64,000 nt of DNA from Scilla litardierei (Eukaryota; Streptophyta; Magnoliopsida; Asparagales; Asparagaceae): the NCBI GenBank assembly GCA_030789695.1, contig CM061130.1:17540561-17604560 (forward strand), given 5' to 3'. Shown here in pieces: positions 7,662 to 45,892 of this stretch (position 1 is the stretch's first letter; every line of letters starts with the position of its first letter). A program made the position numbers and the translations under genes. The notes below the pieces were generated by a model. That model did no database searches. It was not told the origin of the DNA and worked only from the letters and a program-made list of their open reading frames with translations.

Positions 7662-8739
7662 GTGGGGCAAGTGCGAGGGAGCCAAAGACTATCTTGGAGT
7701 TGCTACATTAGCTCCACCAAGCACAAAGCGCCCGAGCAGGCCTTGTCGGTCGACCTCCTCGACGATCGGGAGGACTTCTACGACCAGCGACCGGCTCCGG
7801 TGGAAGCGATCGAAGAGGTGTCAATATCAGCAGAGGAAAGCAAGACTGTCTCCATAGGCACGAAGCTCACGGCCGCTCTGAGGACAGGACTCATTGATCT
7901 CCTCAGAGAGAATAAAGACATCATCGCGTGGTCGCCCTCAGATATGCCCGGAGTTGATCCCGTAGTGATCGCTCACGAGCTGAATGTGGACCCAGAAGCT
8001 CGTCCAGTTAGACAGAAGAAGAGGAGCTCCGGAGGAGAGAAGATGCAGGCGACGGGCAAGGAGGTGGAGTGGCTCCTCGAAGCCAAATTTATCAAGTTGG
8101 TGAGCTACCCGGAATGGCTGGCTAATGTCGTTATGGTGAAGAAGGTCAGTGGTAAGTGGCGCATGTGCATCGACTTCACTGACCTCAACAAAATGTGCCT
8201 GAAGAACAGCTTTCCCTTGCCAATGATCGACCACTTAGTCGACCATGCCTCGGGCTACGAACTTCTGAGCTTCATGGACGTCTTCTCGGGCTACAATCAA
8301 ATTCCAATAGCGAAGGTTGATGAAGAGAAGACTTCGTTCATCACAGAGAAAGGAACTTTCTGCTACATAAAGATGTCATTTGGATTGAAGAATGTTGGGG
8401 CGACCTATCAACGAATGGTGGACAAGATCTTCAGCTCTCAGGTCGGGCAAAACCTTGAAGTCTACATTAATGATATGCTGGTCAAAACCAAGGAGGCCAA
8501 TGACCACCTCGCCGACCTACAGGAGACCTTCCAGAAGGATCATTGTTACAACTTGAGGCTCAACCCGGCAAAGTGCATCTTTCGCGTTCAATCAGGAAAG
8601 TTCCTCAGTTTTATGATTACGAAGAGAGGGATTGAGGCGAACCCCGACAAGATATTGGCCCTCGTCAACATGAGCGAGCCTCAAACAATTAGAGACCTAC
8701 AGAGATAGAACGGGAGAATCGTCCTGCTTGGGAGGTTCC
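7662..8739 (+). pseudogene. E1 reverse transcriptase, catalytic box altered, cut by E2
   Basis: A long open stretch (7662-8708) covers the RT of a Tat element. Visible blocks are WSPSDMPGVDP, then NVVMVKKVSGKWRMCIDF, LLSFMDVFSGYNQIPIAKVD, CYIKMSFGLKNVGATYQRMV and the active-site region EVYINDMLVK. The canonical Y-V/I-D-D is Y-I-N-D here, so the second-last catalytic aspartate is lost. A TAG at 8706-8708 is followed in frame by NGRIVLLGRF, the start of the connection to RNase H, which E2 interrupts after GTTCC at 8735-8739. The frame resumes at 40411. Confidence 0.88.
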
Positions 8740-10318
8740 TGACGTGTGTTTATATTTTATATATTCACCCACGTCTTCTCCGTCGTTTTCCATCGCTTTT
8801 CGTTATTTCGTATCTGTTTCTTTGTGTTTTTAGTTTCTTTTTAATTTCATTGAGTTTATGTGCATTTGCAGGATATTGCTAGTACATGGGACATATATGG
8901 CCAACATCATGAGTCCCCGGAGCAACGGAAAGTGTTGCACGAGATCCCGATAGCCATTCGTCAAAGATGACTATGTATCAGCTCTCACCCGATCGGGTGG
9001 AATAGCCACTAGATCGGGTCATACAGTCTATGTCAGTGCTGAAGAAGAGACTGTACCACCCGATCGATTCAGTGATCGGGTGGATGTATGACAGAGTGCA
9101 GTTTTGAAGGCCAAAGCTCACCCGGTCGGTTGACTTGTCAACCGATCGGGTCATGTATTGTGACCCGATCGGGTCGGCACTTTCACCCAATTGGGTCAGC
9201 TGCTGCTGCTTCCCAAGCTTAAGAAATCCAAGACTCACCCGATCGGTTCAATGATCAGGTGAGATTTATCAGAGCTGAAGACATATTTCTCCGTCGTTTC
9301 ACCCGATCGGGTAAGTGACTGTTTTTGTCTTTTTGTGGGAATATTCCCTGTCATCTTGCCCACTTGTATAAATAGTGCTAGGTTTTTCCAGAAACGGGAT
9401 CCCCACTTTTTGAGTTGTTTTGAGGGATTTTCAGCTGCTTGAATTAAACACTTAGTGTAAGTTCTTTGATCGTTTTCATATTTTGATATTGTGTTTATGC
9501 TTCTATTTGCTACGGTGAACAATTGCTTGATTTCAATTCTTATGGCTATATCTTCTGTTATTGCATTTGCTACCATGTTTAGTGAGTAGTTCTTCAATCT
9601 AGGACATTGGTCGAAGCCCCTTCGTAAGTTCTTCCTAGAATGGCCATAGGTCTAGGGATCCGATTGGATCTAGGGATTTTGATGGTTACGCGGGGGCGTT
9701 TGATTGTCATCGGTGGGAAAAGGACCACTTTTGACCGTTGGGCCAAGAGAAAATAAAACGGGAGTTTGATTCTATAGCTATAGCTCACCCCCTAGCGTTG
9801 ACATTGAGTCCTTGCATGTGGGAACGGCTTGGACGAAATGTTGGGAGGATCGTTGCGATCTTAGTGCCCCCGGATTCGGATGGTGTTGGACATGGAAATG
9901 TCCATCATCTGAAGTCGGGTAGACCTAGCGTATCATCCTGGGCATCGACCGGAATATCGGGCCCATGGGACCCTAGGTACCACTTTTAGAGGCAACGTCT
10001 CACTGCCAAACCCTAGCATTCAGTCATATCCCTACCCTTCGGCCGTAATAGTGAGGATCCATGATTAGGGTGGAAGCCAAAGTCCTAGGTTACCTTTTTA
10101 CCTTTTACATCTGTTCTATTAGTTTACAATCATGACAACCAATCGAGAATAGGCTGGCTCATCCACCGGGTGATCCGGTTCCTGAATGTTTGCAAGTGCA
10201 ACAAACGCCTCCCCGTGATCGACCCCCAAGCCAGACTTCGACACCGTGCACTTGTGATTTATAAATTCTAATTCTAGTATCCCCGTCTCGGTTTGCATGT
10301 CAAATGGGCGGCCGGTCA
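8740..10318 (+). repeat. E2 5' LTR (1,579 bp)
   Basis: Starts TGACGTGTG and ends GGCCGGTCA. A TATA box (TATAAATA) lies at 9367-9374. Immediately upstream, 8985-9312, is an array of the 12-bp palindrome ACCCGATCGGGT and degenerate half-sites. Downstream is a roughly 940-bp R/U5 with no ORF of note. It aligns along its length with the split 3' LTR, with scattered, mainly transition-type differences. Confidence 0.93.
8985..9312 (+). promoter_or_regulatory. E2 U3 array of ACCCGATCGGGT palindromes
   Basis: Perfect ACCCGATCGGGT copies are at 8987-8998, 9163-9174 and 9301-9312. Between them are variants such as CCCGATCGATTC, GTGATCGGGTGG, ACCCGGTCGGTT and ACCGATCGGGTC, spaced roughly 20-45 bp. The array ends about 55 bp before the TATA box. 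Placement suggests a transcription-factor binding array controlling the LTR promoter; no factor is assigned. Confidence 0.7.
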
Positions 10319-28185: not shown

Positions 28186-28190
28186 ACCAA

Positions 28191-30486
28191 TGTCACGACC
28201 CGCTTCCCTAAAATGGAGGCGAGACGTGAAAAGGTCCGCACGAGAGTGGAGCTGTGAAGCCCCAAACTCGATAAGCGTCCACAATACATAAACAGGTCCC
28301 TGTAACCACAACAGAATAGCAATAATAACACAAGGAGAGACTGAAATAAAATTCACATCTCACAAATATTGTCCAACATCACAAATAAGTTCAACATCCA
28401 GAAAAGCCACCAGGCTAAAAGAAAAGAGTCTAAAGGCCCAGAACAAGGCCAACAAAAGAAACGACATAACAAAATATAGTATAGGTGCCACGCACCGATA
28501 ACAAAACAACTGCCTAAACAAAAGTAAAGCACAACGAAGACACTAGGACTGGTCCCCAGTGTCCACGTACTCCCCGTCAAACACAAGCACGGGCTCGGCG
28601 TCTGCAAACACCTCGTCCCCAACAAGTAACTCAGGCTCGGGCTCTAACATGTGTCACCCAAAAGAGAAAAGGGGCACATGTCAGCAAGTCGAACGACTTG
28701 TGCAAGGAAACGGGAATAATGGTAAACTAGCAACCTAACAATTAAAACATGGTGCATGGCAAGTAAAGTACGGTGGTAACAAGTAAGGTAAAGTATAGTA
28801 CAAGTGGCAAGGGGTTGTTGTGACATGTAATGTCAAGTAACAAGTACAAGTACAAGGGATCACTCAACGAGTGCCCTATTGCCCGCAGGCTGTGTTCAGG
28901 TATCAAGTACAAGGGATCACTCAACGAGTGCCCTATTGCCCACAGGCTGTGATGAGCTCGTCTTCTGGAACACGAGCCAGAAAGTGTATTTGATAAGTAT
29001 GGCGTAGGGGTGCACCTAGCCGGAACGAGTAACACTAGTATGTAGCGATGCTACGCAATCACGATGAGCATTCAAGCATGCAATGACATGAGCAGATAAT
29101 TTGCGTACCGTTAATTAAATTAAACGTGACAGGCGAAATGCAATGACATGAACATATTCGCGTACCGTTAATTAAATTAAACATGGCAGTTAAAATGCAA
29201 TAGCAGTTAAGGATGCATGGATGACATGAACAGTTATTTTCGCGTACCGTTAAGGAAAGTAAACGTGACATACAAGCATGATGAAAGTGACGGACCAAGC
29301 TTCGTTGTCAAGCTAGGCCAATGGCGTCTAAACGGCTATCCTTTCACCGTCTAGTCTCTTTTACGCTAAAGCAAGGTAAATGGCCTAAGACATGGCCTAA
29401 ATCAAGAGATGCAAGTTTCACTTGCCTATCACCGGGGAGAACGGTCACGAAAGTTCGTCTCCGCGGATGCTAGCCTACGGGGAATCGCTGTTATGGGGAA
29501 CAATCATCAAAACACAAGTATTTTATTAGGGTTTCATAAAAATTGCAATAGGGTAAGAAAACAACGGTGGATCGATTTCTTACCGAGAGGAGGCGGAAGG
29601 AACACTCCGGGGAACCCTAGGACCAGATCTGGAAAAGATTGGAGAAGTTTGGGGAAACTAGGGTTTTGGGGGATTTGGGGATTTGATGGGTTTTGGTGAG
29701 ATTTTGGGGAAGATGAGAGGTAGATAGGGTAGATGGATGGTTTGGATGATGGATTTAGGGCTTGGAATGAAGCAATGGAGCTTGGAGGAAGATGGGGGCT
29801 CAATGGGGGAGAAACTAGGGCTTAGGGTCGTGTTGGAGAAGAAGAAGTCGTTTGGGGGGGTATTTATAGGTTGAGCTGGCGGCTAGGGCAAAACTAGGGT
29901 TTCCTGCACTGCTTAGTCGGTCAAAGAACAACTGTTGACCGACTAGTTCGAGATCTAGTCGGTCGGTTGAACAACGCAGACCGACTAAGTGTAAACAGTA
30001 ACTCCAGTCGAAAACCTGAACTAAGAGTTAGTCGGTTCAAGAAGCATCGCCGACCGACTAGTTTGCAACCTAGTCGGTCAACCAACGTTCTTAGACCGAC
30101 TAACGATAAACAGTAGCTTCCTCAGAAAATTAGAAAGCTCACTAGTCGGTCCAAGAAGGATTGCCGACCGACTGGATCGTCATCTAGTCGGTCGGTGGCC
30201 CTTCTTACACCGGCTAATGAGCACAGAAAGTACCAATACGGAGCGCGAGGCCCCGTGATCGAATCCTAAGACTCCTAGGCTTGATCTAATAGTTAGATAT
30301 GACCGTTATGAAGCCCGTCACAAACGACGTACTTCGAAATCGACGATCCTAAGGAAGAATCGAGAAAATACGACGAATCGATCGAAAATGAAAGTTACGG
30401 AGACGAAAACCACACAAGAGGAGAAAATCCACCAAAACATATATTATAATATATAAAATCCAGATACATGAAAAGCAGTCGTTACA
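28191..30486 (-). repeat. E4 3' LTR
   Basis: In element sense it runs TGTAACGACTGC to GTCGTGACA. The TATA box (TATAAATA, minus strand) is at 29861-29868. Upstream of it in element sense, 29913-30210, is the TAGTCGGTC/GACCGACTA array. Downstream near 28847-28946 is a duplicated module containing GAGTGCCCTATTGCCC on the plus strand. The polypurine tract TTGGGGAGGA (minus strand) lies directly outside at 30487-30496. Confidence 0.95.
29913..30210 (-). promoter_or_regulatory. E4 U3 inverted-motif array
   Basis: TAGTCGGTC and its reverse complement GACCGACTA alternate about every 20 bp, forming at least four inverted pairs about 42 bp apart, with a few decayed copies. In element sense the array ends about 50 bp before the TATA box at 29861-29868. 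An identical copy sits in the other LTR (36967-37264). Confidence 0.7.
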
Positions 30487-30531
30487 TCCTCCCCAACTTA
30501 AGAAAAATTCCGTCCTCGGAATTCCCAAAAC

Positions 30532-31422
30532 TCACGAGTCCGGAAACAAAAGTGGAAAACGCTCTCGCATCTCATCCTCATTCTCCCAAGTAGACTCTCC
30601 AGGTGAACCGTGTCGCCACATCACCCTCACAAGATTAACAATCTTGTTCCGAAGCGATTTCTGACGCCTGTCCAGAATCTGCACTGGATGCTGGTCATAC
30701 GTCATATCGGGGCGAACGGTAATCTCCGAAAAATCCACCGCATGAGACGGATCGCTAATGTATCGACGAAGCTGCGACACATGGAAAACATTGTGAACTC
30801 CTTCCAAAGACGGCGGCAAGGCCAAGCGATAAGCTACCTCGCCAACCCTCTCCAAAACGTCAAACGGTCCAATGTATCGCGGGCTCAACTTTCCACGCTT
30901 CCCAAAACGAATCACACCACGATTCGGGGAAATCTTCAAGAACACATGGTCACCCGGCTGAAACTCCAAAGGACGACGTTTAGCATCCGACCAATGCTTA
31001 AAACGGTCCTGAGCAATTCTCAACCTCTCCCGAATATTCCTGACGATATCCACGGCCTCCACGATCATCTCAGGTCCCAACAACTCCCGATCACCAACGT
31101 CATCCCAACTCAATGGCGATCGACATTTCCTCCCATAAAGAGCGGCGAAAGGCGCCATGCCAATACTCGCCTGGAAGCTGTTGTTGTAAGAGAACTCCAC
31201 CAAGTGTAGATGGTCCTCCCACGAACCCTTGAAATCCAACATGCACGCCCTCAGCATGTCTTCCAAAATCTGAATCGTCCTCTCGGACTGGCCATCCGTC
31301 TGCGGATGGTACGCCGTGCTGAAACTCAGACGCGTACCCAAACTCTTCTGCAAACTCTGCCAGAACTGAGATGTGAACCTCGTGTCTCTGTCAGACACGA
31401 TACTCACGGGGACTCCATGAAG
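30532..31422 (-). CDS. E4 integrase C-terminal half plus chromodomain
   Basis: In-frame continuation of pol after the TGA at 31425-31423. It holds the second and third integrase catalytic residues (IVSDRDTRF, then [16 protein letters not shown]), the GPY/F-like region [18 protein letters not shown] and [10 protein letters not shown]. The C-terminus ([45 protein letters not shown]) is a Tekay-type chromodomain, expected to guide integration toward heterochromatin. The frame matches the upstream ORF exactly, so this half is lost only because of the stop codon. Ends at TAG/TGA near 30532. Confidence 0.92.
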
Positions 31423-33854
31423 TCACACAACCTCCTCCATATATCTCCTCGCTAGCGCCTCAGTGGACTGTCCCACTCGGAACGGAATAAAGTGCGCAGA
31501 TTTGGTCAATCGATCTACGATCACCCAAATCGCGTCATTCTGCTTCGGACTCCGAGGTAGTCCAGTCACGAAATCCATAGTGATGTGCTGCCACTTCCAC
31601 TCCGGAATCGGAAGCGGTTGTAGCATCCCGGCCGAACGCTGATGCTCCGCCTTCACTTGCTGGCAAACCAAGCACTTGGCTACACTCCGAGCCACGCTCC
31701 TCTTCATACCATGCCACCAATAATTCAGACGAAGATCCTGGTACATCTTGGTGCCACCAGGATGCACAGAATACGGCGAACTGTGTGCCTCCACCATCAG
31801 CTCCTCTCTGATATCCCCAGCTGGCACACACAACCTGGCTCCAAACCTCAGCGAGCCATCCTCATGAATCAAAAAGTCAGTCCGCAGACCGGCTTCCACC
31901 ATCTCCCGAATCCTCACCAGCTTCGGATCCTCAGCCTGGCCAGCCTTAATCCGATCCACGATCGTCGACTGCACCTGCATGTACATCAACGACGAAGCCT
32001 CTCCAGGAAGAACAATCTCCACGCCAGACTCGCAAAAATCCTGCTGCAATCTCCACTGCGAGGTCAAAATCATCACCGCAGGAAGCCTACTCAAAGCATC
32101 CGGAACCACATTCACCTTGCCAGGGTGATACTGCAAATCAATCTCGTAATCCGCCATAAGCTCCAACCACCGACGCTGTCGCATGTTGAGCTCCTTCTGA
32201 GTGAAAATATACTTCAAGCTTTTGTGATCGGTGAAAATCTTCACTTTCTCACTCAGCAAGAAGTGCCTCCAAATCTTAAGAGCAAACACAACGGCAGCCA
32301 ACTCCAAATCATGTGTCGGGTAATTCTTCTCATGAACCTTAAGCTGACGAGACGCATACGCCACAACGTGCCCGTGCTGATGCAACACACAACCGAGACC
32401 CTTGCCAGAAGCATCGCAAAAGATCTCAAATCCACCGCTGCGATCAGGCACAACAAGAATAGGGGCACTCGTCAACCTCTCCTTCAGAACACCAAAAGCC
32501 CTCTCACAATCACCCGACCAAACATAAGCAATATCCTTCCGCGTCAACCTGGTCATCGGCTCAGCAATACGGGAAAAGTCCTTAATGAATCGCCGATAAT
32601 AACCAGCAAGTCCAAGAAAACTCCGAATCTCAGACGCAGACGACGGAACAGGCCACTCCCTGATGGCCCGAATCTTCTCGGGATCCACTGAAATACCATC
32701 TCCAGTCACCACATGCCCGAGAAAAGCAACTCTATCCAGCCAAAACTCGCACTTCGAAAACTTAGCATACAAACGATGCTTCCTCAAGATCTCCAACACC
32801 GTCCTTAAGTGCGAGGCATGCTCTTCCTCCGACTTCGAATAGATCAGAATGTCGTCAATGAAGATAACGACAAACTTATCCAAAAAGTCGTAGAAAATCA
32901 GGTTCATCAGATTCATGAAAACTGCGGGCGCGTTAGTTACGCCAAAAGGCATAACCACGAACTCATAGTGTCCATACTTCGTCCTGAACGCTGTCTTCGG
33001 AACATCTCCCTTCTTCACCTTCAACTGATGGTAACCACTCCTCAAATCCAATTTAGAAAACACCCTCGAACCTCCAAGCTGATCAAAAATATCATCGATG
33101 CGAGGCAACGGGTATTTATTCTTAATGGTCACCGCATTCAATTCCCGATAGTCCACGCACATGCGACGCGAACCATCCTTCTTCTTAACCAGCAACACCG
33201 GTGCTCCCCACGGAGACACACTAGGATTAATATAACCCTTCTGCAAAAGATCATCCAACTGCTTCCGCAACTCTTCCAACTCTGCAGGTGCCATACGATA
33301 CGGCGCCTTCGAAATCGGCTGCGCACCTGGAACAAGATCGATAGAAAATTCCAAAGCCCGATCAGGCGGCAAACCAGACATCTCCTCGGGGAAGACGTCG
33401 CCAAAATCTCGCACCACAGCTGGCCACTCCAGCTCCATCTGCATAGCCACAGCCTCCACCGGCCTGGCCCGAAATCTGACAGGACCAAGCGAACTGCTAC
33501 CACGACTGAACTCAAACACTGGGTGTCCGGGAATCTCGAACACCACCTTCTTCCTCCGACAGTCGATCGTAGCATAGAAGCTCGCAAGCCAATCCATCCC
33601 AAGAACTGCATCATAGTTGATGATGTCGTGGACAATGAAATCAGCACAAAGCTCTCGTCCACAAACCACCAACGGGCAAGAATTGCACCCACGATGCACC
33701 GAGACCACACCATTCCCTGTAACGATATTCCAACTCTTCGAAAGAGGGGACGTCGACAAGTAATGCCTCTCCACGAAGCTCCGAGAAATAATGCACATCG
33801 ATGCACCAGAGTCAAAGAGGACTCGTGCAGGAAATGTGCACACCAAAATCACAC
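31423..33854 (-). CDS. E4 pol exon: protease, RT, RNase H, integrase N-terminus
   Basis: 810 codons ending at TGA (31425-31423). Protease box LFDSGAS lies at residues 13-19. RT spans about 200-380 with [11 protein letters not shown] and the active site [12 protein letters not shown] (FIDD at 331-334). RNase H is intact with FCDASGKG (D480), E517, TDHKSL (D542) and PDALSRL (D585). The integrase zinc finger ([19 protein letters not shown]) and first catalytic D ([10 protein letters not shown]) follow. There is no ATG at the start: the exon begins at an apparent splice acceptor (33855/33854) and joins gag in frame as Gag-Pol. The TGA replaces an expected arginine codon (CGA to TGA). Confidence 0.93.
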
Positions 33855-33967
33855 CTAATCAATCAATTAACAATCAAATCCTAGTCTAGCAAACAATCAT
33901 GAGCAAGCAACCAATATAATCAAAAATCAACTAACTAAGGAAGATAAATAGCTAGAATGAGCGTTAC
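33855..33967 (-). other. E4 putative intron between gag and pol (113 bp)
   Basis: Minus-strand donor TTGCAG/GTAACG at 33968/33967 and acceptor TTGATTAG/GTGTG at 33855/33854. The segment is AT/T-rich with TTAATTGATTGAT before the acceptor and includes the gag stop codon. Removal joins phase-1 exons exactly (G + GT gives Gly) and restores the usual gag-protease junction, VIAG followed by VILV. Unspliced RNA would give Gag alone, spliced RNA Gag-Pol. The intron is inferred from sequence only. Confidence 0.75.
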
Positions 33968-35099
33968 CTGCAATAACTTCATCCACGGCCATGCTCTCCT
34001 CCTCAGTCATCAGAAAGGCCTGCCCTCTCGGCGGAACAGCCTGCCGAAAGGCCTGTCTCTGTGGAACAAGGGGCGCTCCACGTCCAACGGGCACAGGAGC
34101 TCGCTGCTGCAACGGCTGCGCTGCAATAGGAGCCCGCCAAGGCTGTCTCGACTTCGGACACTCCCGGATGGTGTGGGCAGGATCTCCGCAGACAATGCAC
34201 TGTCCTAGAAACCTCCTACACTGATCCCTGAGGTGTCCAGTCTTGCCACAGAAATGGCAAGTCTTCAGGATAGGCCCTCCTGGCCTCTTGAACTGCACCG
34301 GATGACTAGGCTTGAAACCAGGCCTAACCACAGCTCTCGCCTGTTCCACAGGCCTCTTTCCAGCTCCGGAAACATGTCCCTTCCTCTGATTCAAATTCAA
34401 CTCCTGCCGCCTCGCAGCAATCAGAACCTTCTGATATGTCTCCAAGTCAGAAGAGGTCACAAAGCTCTGAAGCTCCAAGGCAAGTCCCTGGAGAAATCGC
34501 TGAGCTTTCTCATCGGCATCCTGCACCATCTTAGGTGCAAACCGACTGAGCCTCGTGAACTCCTGGTGGTACTGATCCACCGACAAGCTCCCCTGCTTCA
34601 GATCTATAAAGCGCTGCAGCATCACCTGCCGAGCAGCCTTCGGGAAGAACTCTCCATCGAATCTGGACTTGAAGGTAGCCCAGACGATCGGCTCCACCAG
34701 CATCTTCTCTTCAGCATCCCACAAATTCCTGGCGTTATCCTTCAGCTGCCTCTTAGCCAGATCAACCCATCCAGCCGGGTTAATCTTTGCCATTGCCAAG
34801 TTATCCTCAATGTTCCTTATCCATTCGTCGGCAGCCAGAGGACCCTCAGAACCATCAAAGTATGCGGGACCCAGCTCCCGAAATTGCTTCGCTCCTGGCT
34901 CAGAGCGAGGGGCATCGGGAAGAGCCCGGGCAGCTCGAGCAGGTGGAGCATTCTGGACTTGCAAAAGCACGCCCTGCTGCACTTGCATCATCTGGATCAT
35001 CATCCGCATCATCTCACCGCTGGTGGGTTCCCGCTCAGGCTCCTCATCATGAGGGAGCGCACCACTACCACCACCGCGGGTGAAACGTCTTCCTGCCAT
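33927..35099 (-). CDS. E4 gag
   Basis: 390 codons from ATG at 35099 (MAGRRFTRGG), complete and uninterrupted. The capsid core is at about residues 70-210: PAYFDGSEGPLAADEWI, LAKRQLKDNARNLWD, FKSRFDGEFFPKAARQ and FIDLKQGSLSVDQYHQEF. Two CCHC knuckles follow: CHFCGKTGHLRDQC at about 282 and CIVCGDPAHTIREC at about 303. The last 13 residues (NAHSSYLSSLVS) come from the apparent intron; residues 1-377 plus a shared Gly would be common to Gag and Gag-Pol. Function: virus-like particle assembly and RNA packaging in the cytoplasm. Confidence 0.93.
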   Translation of the reverse strand: MAGRRFTRGGGSGALPHDEEPEREPTSGEMMRMMIQMMQVQQGVLLQVQNAPPARAARALPDAPRSEPGAKQFRELGPAYFDGSEGPLAADEWIRNIEDNLAMAKINPAGWVDLAKRQLKDNARNLWDAEEKMLVEPIVWATFKSRFDGEFFPKAARQVMLQRFIDLKQGSLSVDQYHQEFTRLSRFAPKMVQDADEKAQRFLQGLALELQSFVTSSDLETYQKVLIAARRQELNLNQRKGHVSGAGKRPVEQARAVVRPGFKPSHPVQFKRPGGPILKTCHFCGKTGHLRDQCRRFLGQCIVCGDPAHTIRECPKSRQPWRAPIAAQPLQQRAPVPVGRGAPLVPQRQAFRQAVPPRGQAFLMTEEESMAVDEVIAGNAHSSYLSSLVS

Positions 35100-35244
35100 C
35101 TAGTGACACGGAAAACAAATCAGATTAGACTCATAGCTTATGACTCGGACGTCGAACTTAATTTATTGGACATTCTAATGTTATTATCGCTATTCCAAAA
35201 ATCGCAGTTACAGAAGGAGACCTGCATGGGCCACCACTAAAACC

Positions 35245-37540
35245 TGTCACGACCCGCTTCCCTAAAATGGAGGCGAGACGTGAAAAGGTCCGCACGAGAG
35301 TGGAGCTGTGAAGCCCCAAACTCGATAAGCGTCCACAATACATAAACAGGTCCCTGTAACCACAACAGAATAGCAATAATAACACAAGGAGAGACTGAAA
35401 TAAAATTCACATCTCACAAATATTGTCCAACATCACAAATAAGTTCAACATCCAGAAAAGCCACCAGGCTAAAAGAAAAGAGTCTAAAGGCCCAGAACAA
35501 GGCCAACAAAAGAAACGACATAACAAAATATAGTATAGGTGCCACGCACCGATAACAAAACAACTGCCTAAACAAAAGTAAAGCACAACGAAGACACTAG
35601 GACTGGTCCCCAGTGTCCACGTACTCCCCGTCAAACACAAGCACGGGCTCGGCGTCTGCAAACACCTCGTCCCCAACAAGTAACTCAGGCTCGGGCTCTA
35701 ACATGTGTCACCCAAAAGAGAAAAGGGGCACATGTCAGCAAGTCGAACGACTTGTGCAAGGAAACGGGAATAATGGTAAACTAGCAACCTAACAATTAAA
35801 ACATGGTGCATGGCAAGTAAAGTACGGTGGTAACAAGTAAGGTAAAGTATAGTACAAGTGGCAAGGGGTTGTTGTGACATGTAATGTCAAGTAACAAGTA
35901 CAAGTACAAGGGATCACTCAACGAGTGCCCTATTGCCCGCAGGCTGTGTTCAGGTATCAAGTACAAGGGATCACTCAACGAGTGCCCTATTGCCCACAGG
36001 CTGTGATGAGCTCGTCTTCTGGAACACGAGCCAGAAAGTGTATTTGATAAGTATGGCGTAGGGGTGCACCTAGCCGGAACGAGTAACACTAGTATGTAGC
36101 GATGCTACGCAATCACGATGAGCATTCAAGCATGCAATGACATGAGCAGATAATTTGCGTACCGTTAATTAAATTAAACGTGACAGGCGAAATGCAATGA
36201 CATGAACATATTCGCGTACCGTTAATTAAATTAAACATGGCAGTTAAAATGCAATAGCAGTTAAGGATGCATGGATGACATGAACAGTTATTTTCGCGTA
36301 CCGTTAAGGAAAGTAAACGTGACATACAAGCATGATGAAAGTGACGGACCAAGCTTCGTTGTCAAGCTAGGCCAATGGCGTCTAAACGGCTATCCTTTCA
36401 CCGTCTAGTCTCTTTTACGCTAAAGCAAGGTAAATGGCCTAAGACATGGCCTAAATCAAGAGATGCAAGTTTCACTTGCCTATCACCGGGGAGAACGGTC
36501 ACGAAAGTTCGTCTCCGCGGATGCTAGCCTACGGGGAATCGCTGTTATGGGGAACAATCATCAAAACACAAGTATTTTATTAGGGTTTCATAAAAATTGC
36601 AATAGGGTAAGAAAACAACGGTGGATCGATTTCTTACCGAGAGGAGGCGGAAGGAACACTCCGGGGAACCCTAGGACCAGATCTGGAAAAGATTGGAGAA
36701 GTTTGGGGAAACTAGGGTTTTGGGGGATTTGGGGATTTGATGGGTTTTGGTGAGATTTTGGGGAAGATGAGAGGTAGATAGGGTAGATGGATGGTTTGGA
36801 TGATGGATTTAGGGCTTGGAATGAAGCAATGGAGCTTGGAGGAAGATGGGGGCTCAATGGGGGAGAAACTAGGGCTTAGGGTCGTGTTGGAGAAGAAGAA
36901 GTCGTTTGGGGGGGTATTTATAGGTTGAGCTGGCGGCTAGGGCAAAACTAGGGTTTCCTGCACTGCTTAGTCGGTCAAAGAACAACTGTTGACCGACTAG
37001 TTCGAGATCTAGTCGGTCGGTTGAACAACGCAGACCGACTAAGTGTAAACAGTAACTCCAGTCGAAAACCTGAACTAAGAGTTAGTCGGTTCAAGAAGCA
37101 TCGCCGACCGACTAGTTTGCAACCTAGTCGGTCAACCAACGTTCTTAGACCGACTAACGATAAACAGTAGCTTCCTCAGAAAATTAGAAAGCTCACTAGT
37201 CGGTCCAAGAAGGATTGCCGACCGACTGGATCGTCATCTAGTCGGTCGGTGGCCCTTCTTACACCGGCTAATGAGCAAAGAAAGTACCAATACGGAGCGC
37301 GAGGCCCCGTGATCGAATCCTAAGACTCCTAGGCTTGATCTAATAGTTAGATATGACCGTTATGAAGCCCGTCACAAACGACGTACTTCGAAATCGACGA
37401 TCCTAAGGAAGAATCGAGAAAATACGACGAATCGATCGAAAATGAAAGTTACGGAGACGAAAACCACACAAGAGGAGAAAATCCACCAAAACATATATTA
37501 TAATATATAAAATCCAGATACATGAAAAGCAGTCGTTACA
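35245..37540 (-). repeat. E4 5' LTR
   Basis: Practically identical to 28191-30486. TATA box (minus) at 36915-36922, inverted-motif array at 36967-37264 and duplicated GAGTGCCCTATTGCCC module at about 35901-36000. The inner flank reads GGTTTTAGTGGTGGCCCATG in element sense, which is not the tRNA-iMet site usual for chromoviruses; I cannot name the primer. Confidence 0.95.
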
Positions 37541-37545
37541 ACCAA

Positions 37546-43978: not shown

Positions 43979-44579
43979 TCAAACTCCACTTTGCATCTGT
44001 GGCGCACCCTCAATGTAATGGAATGGCGGAAGCAGCGAACAAATATATATTGGGCCCCCTGAAGAAGAAGGTCAGTGACGCGCTTGGGTCCTGGCCGGAC
44101 AAGCTACCGGGAATCCTATGGTCATCCCGCACAACCTACAAATCATCGACCGGGAGAGCCAGTTTATGATCGCGTTTGGGGCGGAGGCCGTCGTTCCAGT
44201 AGAAGTGGGAGAGGAGACTCTTCGGCTCAGATACTTCGATGAAGACATCAACATGGAAGGCCTCGACCTCAACATCGAGCTCATCGATGAAGTAAGAGAC
44301 TGAGCCCTTACCAACCTCGTCAAGCATAGCCAGATGATGGCTCGATACTATAACTCCCGAGTGAAGAAACGAAGCTTCAAAGTCGGTGACCTAGTCCTCA
44401 GGGACGCGGCCTTCAAACCAGAGATCGCTCGCCGAGGGAAGCTCTCAGCAAAATGGGAGGACCCTTATGAAATTATTAACATCATCGGGCCAGCGACTTA
44501 CATCCTAGCGACCATAGAAGGCGGCGAGCTAGCCCACCCATGGAATGCTGAGCACTTGCTTAGATACTATCAATAACTT
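43979..44579 (+). pseudogene. E1 integrase, C-terminal part
   Basis: Core end: VAHPQCNGMAEAANKYI supplies the catalytic glutamate. Frameshifts follow around 44100-44300 (IAFGAEAVVPVEVGEETLR is the conserved AYG.EAV.P.E-like motif). The final open block 44334-44576 reads MMARYYNSRVKKRSFKVGDLV, LSAKWEDPYEIINIIG and HPWNAEHLLRYYQ, the GPF-like C-terminal domain of Tat integrases. No chromodomain is present, as expected for Tat. Confidence 0.87.
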
Positions 44580-44764
44580 TGTAAACATTAATGAAATTAT
44601 CTTCTTTTTTGTGCATATTCTCAGATATTATCACCTCCGTTTAAGAAATTTCGACTCTTTTCTGAGGTTAAAAGCATCCTCGCAAAGGTCGACCATATCC
44701 TAGGATGCTCCTACCAACATTAAAAGACGGGATAAGTAAGGTCCCAGAGCAAGGGTAGGCGACC

Positions 44765-45633
44765 GGAGGGTTAGGGCCGAGCTACAGGCTCGTACCCTCC
44801 CCTCCCTCAAATTTCGGGACAAGCTTACGAGCTTTGCCTTCGATAGGATCCGGAGGGCTAGGGTCGAGCTACGGGCTCGTACCCTCCCCTCCCTAAAATT
44901 TTGGGGGAAGCTTACGAGCTTTGCCCTCGATAGGCTCCGGAGGGCTAGGGCCGAGCTACGGGCTCGTACCCTCCCCTCCCTCAAATTCCGGGGCAAGCTT
45001 ACGAGATTTGCCCTCGATAGTCTCCGGAGGGCTAGAGTCGAGCTAGGGTTTGTACCCTCCCCTCCCTCAAATTACAGGGCAAGCTTACGAGATTCGCCCT
45101 CGATAGGCTCCAGAGGGCTAGGGCCGAGTTACGGGCTCGTACCCTCCCCTCCCTTAAATTCTGGGGCAAGCTTACGAGCTTCGCCCTCGATAGGCTCTGG
45201 AGGACTAAGGCTGAGCTACGGGCTCGTACCCTCCACTCCCTCAAATTTCAGGGCAAGCTTACGAGCTTTGCCCTCGATAGGCTCCAGAGGGCTAGGGCCG
45301 AGCTACGGGCTAGTACCCTCCCCTCCTTCAAATTTCGGGGCAAGCTTACGAGTTTCGCCCTCGATATGCTCCAGAGGGCTAGGGCCGAGCTACGGGCTCG
45401 TACCCTCCCCTCCCTCAAATTCCGGGGCAAGCTTACGAGCGTCGCCCTCGATAGGCTCCGGAGGACTAGGGCCGAGCTATGGGCTCGTACCCTTCCCTCC
45501 CTCAAATTCTGGAGCAAGCTTACGAGCTTCGCCCTCGATAGGCCCCGACGGACTTGCGTCGGTCTATACTCTCGACATCCGGCACGATCTCCCCCCAGCT
45601 CTTGTCCGCCCCGAATGTTGGGGGCACACATAA
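44765..45633 (+). repeat. E1 87-bp tandem array, about 10 units
   Basis: Unit starts at GGAGGGCTAGGGCCGAGCTA; starts at 44765, 44852, 44939, 45026, 45112, 45199, 45286, 45373, 45460 and 45547, i.e. 87 bp with one 86. It carries ACGGGCTCGTACCCTCCCCT and CAAGCTTACGAGC. Because 87 is a multiple of three, open frames run through it on both strands (29-residue repeats); I regard these as incidental. 3' tandem arrays are known in Tat-clade elements. Confidence 0.93.
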
Positions 45634-45892
45634 GGACAAGGCAAAATAAAAGGCAACGTCAAGTCACTATTTTCTACAAAATGAATTTCGGACAAGTATT
45701 TTCATTGGTCAAATTGTCAAAAATATATACAAGTATTTTCGGATGCCGGCCTTACAAAAATGGTCACATTGGCCAACCATACCTTGGCCGACACCACGAA
45801 AAACCCAAAACCCCAGCCTAAAGAAAACAAAAAAAACAAAATCATAAACCAAGGCCCCGAGACCGGCCCTTAACCCCTTTCCAAAGATCATG

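Follow-up and report, generated by a model that had tools for sequence, protein, structure and literature searches.

How an element can express its polymerase when gag and pol lie in different reading frames, and pol has no usable start, is the question raised by a long terminal repeat (LTR) retrotransposon of Scilla litardierei. The element lies on the minus strand within a stretch of 64,000 nucleotides (nt) of contig CM061130.1 (assembly GCA_030789695.1, forward-strand positions 17,540,561 to 17,604,560), the whole of which is referred to here as the window. The answer that we hold to be highly probable is that the 113-nt segment between the two genes is a spliceosomal intron that sets the output of Gag relative to Gag-Pol, and that a second intron, within integrase, was most likely lost in the young subfamily to which the window copy belongs.

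The segment runs on the minus strand from 33967 (GT) to 33855 (AG), with the donor CAG/GTAACG and the acceptor TTGATTAG/GTG, and splits a codon after its first base (phase 1; ..GTT ATT GCA G / GT GTG ATT TTG GTG). With the segment removed, gag and protease fall into a single frame that reads VIAG and then VILV, leaving 13 residues from the junction G to DSG, a spacing equal to that in the Asparagus proteins P0005 and P0007, which may be spliced gene models. GC makes up 31% of the segment, compared with 56% of gag and 51% of pol, and its T content is 48%, where 113-nt intervals of the coding strand reach at most 40%; in its ends, its U-richness and its low GC relative to the exons it conforms to the description of a U2-type spliceosomal intron. 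The donor agrees with the plant consensus at 7 of 9 places, a match equalled or bettered by 7 of the 243 GT dinucleotides on the coding strand. Within 15 nt on either side, the observed offset is the sole one to provide GT and AG at the length demanded by homology; under a first-order Markov null, any such GT/AG pair occurs in 13% of sequences, and a pair with a donor equally or more consensus-like in 0.4%.

The reading frames around the segment are equally well delimited. The gag stop (33929-33927) falls within it, the final stop in the pol frame lies at 33861-33859, and pol, in a frame other than that of gag, is open from 33858; the gag and pol frames have no overlap, every one of the three possible frames is closed by stops in the interval, and the first methionine of pol (residue 21) is downstream of the protease motif DSGA (residue 16). 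Frameshifting, readthrough of a single stop and an ordinary pol start are therefore all unworkable. A preliminary description had proposed an AT-rich, 113-bp GT-AG segment holding the gag stop at 33855..33967, the removal of which joins phase-1 exons as VIAG/VILV, upstream of a pol without an ATG of its own; the coordinates prove exact to the base, and the composition, the in-frame junction and the late first methionine were all reproduced.

The host assembly (3.68 Gb in 7266 contigs) was searched with a 401-nt junction query containing the segment, which gave 3059 first-look candidates, of which 40 were scored. All 40 (the window and 39 others) matched at full length at 99-100% and kept the segment, in a set ranked by likeness to a segment-containing query and so biased towards copies that keep it. 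Thirty copies were fetched, the window copy (L001) among them, leaving 29 sisters; every one has the GT of the donor and the AG of the acceptor, and in 27 the segment is identical to that of the window. Sisters in which the segment is open or its splice sites degraded, named in the preliminary description as evidence that would speak against an intron, numbered 0 of the 29, which were picked by similarity. The gag frame is open in 22 sisters, pol5 (the first 551 pol codons) in 26 and both in 21. With L008 left out (its gag is shifted by an indel), 49 single-step variants in gag are synonymous, 41 are non-synonymous and 4 create stops, and the corresponding counts in pol5 are 108, 85 and 3; this pattern, together with the openness of pol5, indicates that pol evolves as a coding gene, though without a usable start. 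In L063 (copy L019), about 137 nt are deleted from pol relative to the window copy.

Other routes to Pol have to be set against these observations. Translational recoding, by frameshift or stop readthrough, would reduce the segment to a mere spacer, and recoding is frequent among retroelements (PMC3735527); with gag ending at 33927, pol opening at 33858 in another frame and several stops in every frame between, we regard this route as extremely improbable. Only slightly better placed, and still very improbable, is separate translation of Pol, whether by internal initiation or from a subgenomic RNA, with the GT-AG fit a coincidence: BARE2 has been suggested to use a later pol start or internal entry (PMC3735527), but the first methionine of pol here follows the protease DSGA, and the exact junction and the intron-like composition would be left unexplained. 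The segment might instead be a defect or insertion in inactive copies, in keeping with the in-frame integrase stop of the window copy and the broken gag of 7 of the 29 sisters; its presence in every scored match and the 21 sisters open in both gag and pol5, signs of a family whose genes on either side have remained coding, make this as remote as recoding.

An additional GT-AG segment, of 70-72 nt, is found in the integrase region of 16 of the 29 sisters and is absent from the other 13 and from the window copy. It was scored in 29 of the 39 listed sisters, a first pass on 20 (10 of them carriers), which looked for a shared in-frame stop, being extended by nine. The segment lies in phase 0 after ATGGAG; in one copy it is 41% T and 37% GC, and its retention stops the frame. 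The gap in non-carriers spans exactly the GT to the AG of the carriers' segment, and the small indels of carriers are confined to it, with the adjoining exon letters remaining in frame. These features we read as the marks of an intron, and the exact presence or absence, newly observed here, suggests as an indirect genomic sign that the RNA of the family is spliced. It lends unexpected support to the proposal of the preliminary description that unspliced RNA encodes Gag and spliced RNA Gag-Pol, which appears to be the best explanation of the locus. All 13 non-carrier sisters and the window copy have the gag-pol intron, as copies picked by a query that contains it.

In the mechanism that we infer, translation of unspliced RNA would begin at the gag ATG and end at the intronic stop, yielding Gag, and RNA lacking the 113 nt would be read through VIAG-VILV into protease, reverse transcriptase (RT), RNase H and integrase, yielding Gag-Pol, so that splicing would control the ratio of the two products. 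The unspliced form would be the only RNA able to transmit the gag-pol intron. The second intron, in the integrase of many family members, would be dispensable, and the young subfamily of the window would descend from an RNA that had lost the integrase intron to splicing, but not the gag-pol intron, before it was reverse-transcribed. Each copying of a spliced RNA costs a retroelement its introns, so that the retention of one signals selection; we lean modestly towards the fuller account in which a regulatory gag-pol intron has been kept by selection and passed on through unspliced RNA only, and a dispensable integrase intron was erased, through reverse transcription of partly spliced RNA, when the young, expanding subfamily arose.

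Several points weigh against the intron as a regulator of Gag and Gag-Pol. Agreement at the junction among the fetched copies is partly built in, because the query contains the intron, and the matching Asparagus proteins may come from spliced gene models. The donor departs from the consensus at +5 and +6. Plant nuclei tend to retain unspliced RNA, a hurdle for the production of Gag from it (PMC8892269), and a sunflower study lists 0 Tekay among 44 highly expressed elements (PMC7730604).

Whether the integrase intron was lost or gained bears on the history proposed, and we consider loss the likelier direction. In a tree of gag and pol from which the segment was left out, 12 of the 13 non-carrier sisters and the window copy form one clade (support 100/98) among carriers, and mean pol divergence is 0.007 within non-carriers, 0.020 within carriers and 0.021 between the groups (L025 left out). 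Four amino-acid sites differ in the groups' commonest residue; at three of them, all variable among carriers, non-carriers are fixed (two sites) or nearly so (12 of 13 at one), and at two of the three the outside relative P0006 shows the residue most frequent in carriers. A loss that follows the splice boundaries exactly would be accounted for most simply by reverse transcription of spliced RNA; since the non-carriers have the gag-pol intron, the founding RNA, or a template-switch partner of it, would have been spliced at the integrase intron but not at the gag-pol intron.

A recent gain of the intron in one subfamily, which would make the non-carriers, the window copy included, the ancestral state, is the less likely course and has its own points of support. 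The integrase flanks taken alone call for a single state change, which could be a gain; P0006 reads straight through the site of the segment; and at amino-acid site 201 P0005, P0006 and P0008 share the commonest residue of the non-carriers, and P0007 that of the carriers. The tree, moreover, is rooted at midpoint only, and the branch that places the carrier L020 beside the non-carrier clade is weak (80/58). The thirteenth non-carrier, L025, groups with a carrier and is mosaic around integrase, with a diverged stretch in common with L043; it is best explained by recombination, less probably by a second event. What tells against gain is the nesting of a low-diversity non-carrier clade among carriers, together with the near-fixation at three of the four differing sites and the carrier-like residues of P0006. 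At the integrase junction, a diverged stretch in both L068 (copy L025) and L043 (copy L014) is evidence for mosaic copies.

Foamy viruses of animals also make Pol from spliced RNA, although their Pol is not fused to Gag, and among plant elements CRR, a centromeric retrotransposon of rice, is a CRM-clade chromovirus. CRR, which like the Scilla element belongs to Ty3/gypsy and has a reported splice event, is said to splice out RT (PMC3735527), unlike the joining of gag to pol considered here. A systematic survey of plant elements names Bianca and Ogre as having a gap between two open reading frames (ORFs), that of Ogre being an intron removed from part of the transcripts (PMC6317226). Ogre, of the Tat lineage of non-chromovirus Ty3/gypsy elements, resembles the Scilla element in an inter-ORF intron whose removal fuses the ORFs in frame; its intron, however, lies after the protease (GAG-PROT / RT-RH-INT, the second ORF comprising RT, RNase H and integrase) in a region averaging 274 bp, whereas the present one lies before the protease and measures 113 nt, in a probable chromovirus with sisters that have a second intron in integrase. 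In Bianca, of the Ty1/copia superfamily, the gap averages 172 bp, and the survey text examined describes no splicing.

A 2025 review describes plant LTR elements as generally intron-free and singles out Ogre and EVADE as exceptions (PMC12786077). In EVADE, Gag comes from the spliced form, and the unspliced one stays mostly in the nucleus (PMC8892269); in BARE1, Gag is produced by splicing out an intron of 104 nt (PMC3735527), and in sunflower spliced isoforms are reported for two Ty1/copia elements, with no Tekay in the expressed set (PMC7730604). The preliminary description had likened the element to Drosophila copia and EVADE: the analogy stands in that EVADE, BARE1 and copia (all Ty1/copia) adjust the proportion of Gag and Gag-Pol by splicing, as the sequence suggests here, but fails in direction, for in those elements spliced RNA gives Gag only and unspliced RNA Gag-Pol, the reverse of what is proposed for the Scilla element, and the true analogue is Ogre. 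By this comparison the element appears to apply the logic of Ogre in another lineage, with the intron at a new site and a second intron besides. Beyond the systems compared here, the literature covered, outside which most subscription journals lie, yielded no account of an intron between gag and pol in a chromovirus, Tekay included.

If the reading is true, splice-controlled expression of Gag-Pol would extend to a probable chromovirus, where it would work in the opposite sense to EVADE, BARE and copia, and surveys that require one continuous Gag-Pol ORF may misjudge such elements as broken. Copies about 1-3% apart in pol, with one intron retained and another lost, would form a natural experiment on splicing, the selection of genomic RNA and the stoichiometry of Gag to Pol.

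Relatives outside the family bear on the donor site. P0001, from a short metagenome contig and 50% identical in gag, stops 9 residues past the same point (VITG), which would fit a donor at this position in a second family as well. In P0006, whose protease is 51% identical, VITG and IVLV are separated by 25 additional residues that resemble a read-through intron; no acceptor fits unless the junction is shifted, and P0006 was not counted at the junction. The end of gag, used as a protein query, gave no matches; a search of IMG/VR for the junction DNA of relatives returned one distant locus with gag (L031, 29%, not used) and none with pol.

The features of the element are collected in Table 1. 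The order of domains (gag, protease, RT, RNase H, integrase, SH3-like) is that of Ty3/gypsy, with two CCHC knuckles spotted by eye in gag, and the match to a chromodomain at the C-terminus of integrase (E 1.6e-4, 22.0 bits) lies below the cut-off of 25.1; the lineage is probably that of a chromovirus. The LTRs differ at 1 of 2296 positions, bearing out the preliminary description of the element as recent. At the grass substitution rate of 1.3e-8 per site and year, one such difference corresponds to some 20,000 years, as an order of magnitude. The window copy is young yet not intact, and the in-frame stop in its integrase (31423-31425) was found in 0 of the 20 sister copies checked. The LTR of 2.3 kb and total length of 9.35 kb are closer to beet Tekay (8.4-11.6 kb) than to beet CRM/Reina (5.3-6.7 kb); the name Tekay is a label assumed in the preliminary description, addressed here by this comparison of sizes.

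Table 1. Coordinates of the element and its parts within the window.
Feature	Position	Strand	Remarks
Complete LTR retrotransposon	28191..37540	minus	LTR pair, target-site duplication, domain order
Target-site duplication ACCAA, left	28186..28190	none	
Target-site duplication ACCAA, right	37541..37545	none	
5' LTR, 2296 bp	35245..37540	minus	1 difference from 3' LTR
3' LTR, 2296 bp	28191..30486	minus	
gag ORF, 390 amino acids on unspliced RNA, start 35099	33927..35099	minus	Retrotrans_gag match; stop within putative intron
Putative gag-pol intron, 113 nt, GT-AG, phase 1	33855..33967	minus	
pol exon to the in-frame stop of the window copy: protease (DSGA), RT, RNase H, zinc-binding part of integrase	31426..33854	minus	
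Remainder of integrase, SH3-like domain, weak chromodomain match	30535..31422	minus	
Site of the integrase segment, empty in the window copy: between 31435 and 31434, phase 0, ATGGAG/GAGGTT	31434..31435	minus	

Just inside the 5' LTR, positions 35205-35244 (minus strand) are unlike the initiator-methionine primer-binding site that is usual in such elements. Elsewhere in the window, pol fragments from other elements, about 26-30% identical to the pol of the main element, lie at 7935-8741 and 43981-44567, and a tandem repeat with a period of 87 nt occupies 44678-45656, where nine 284-nt registers are spaced by 86-87 nt.
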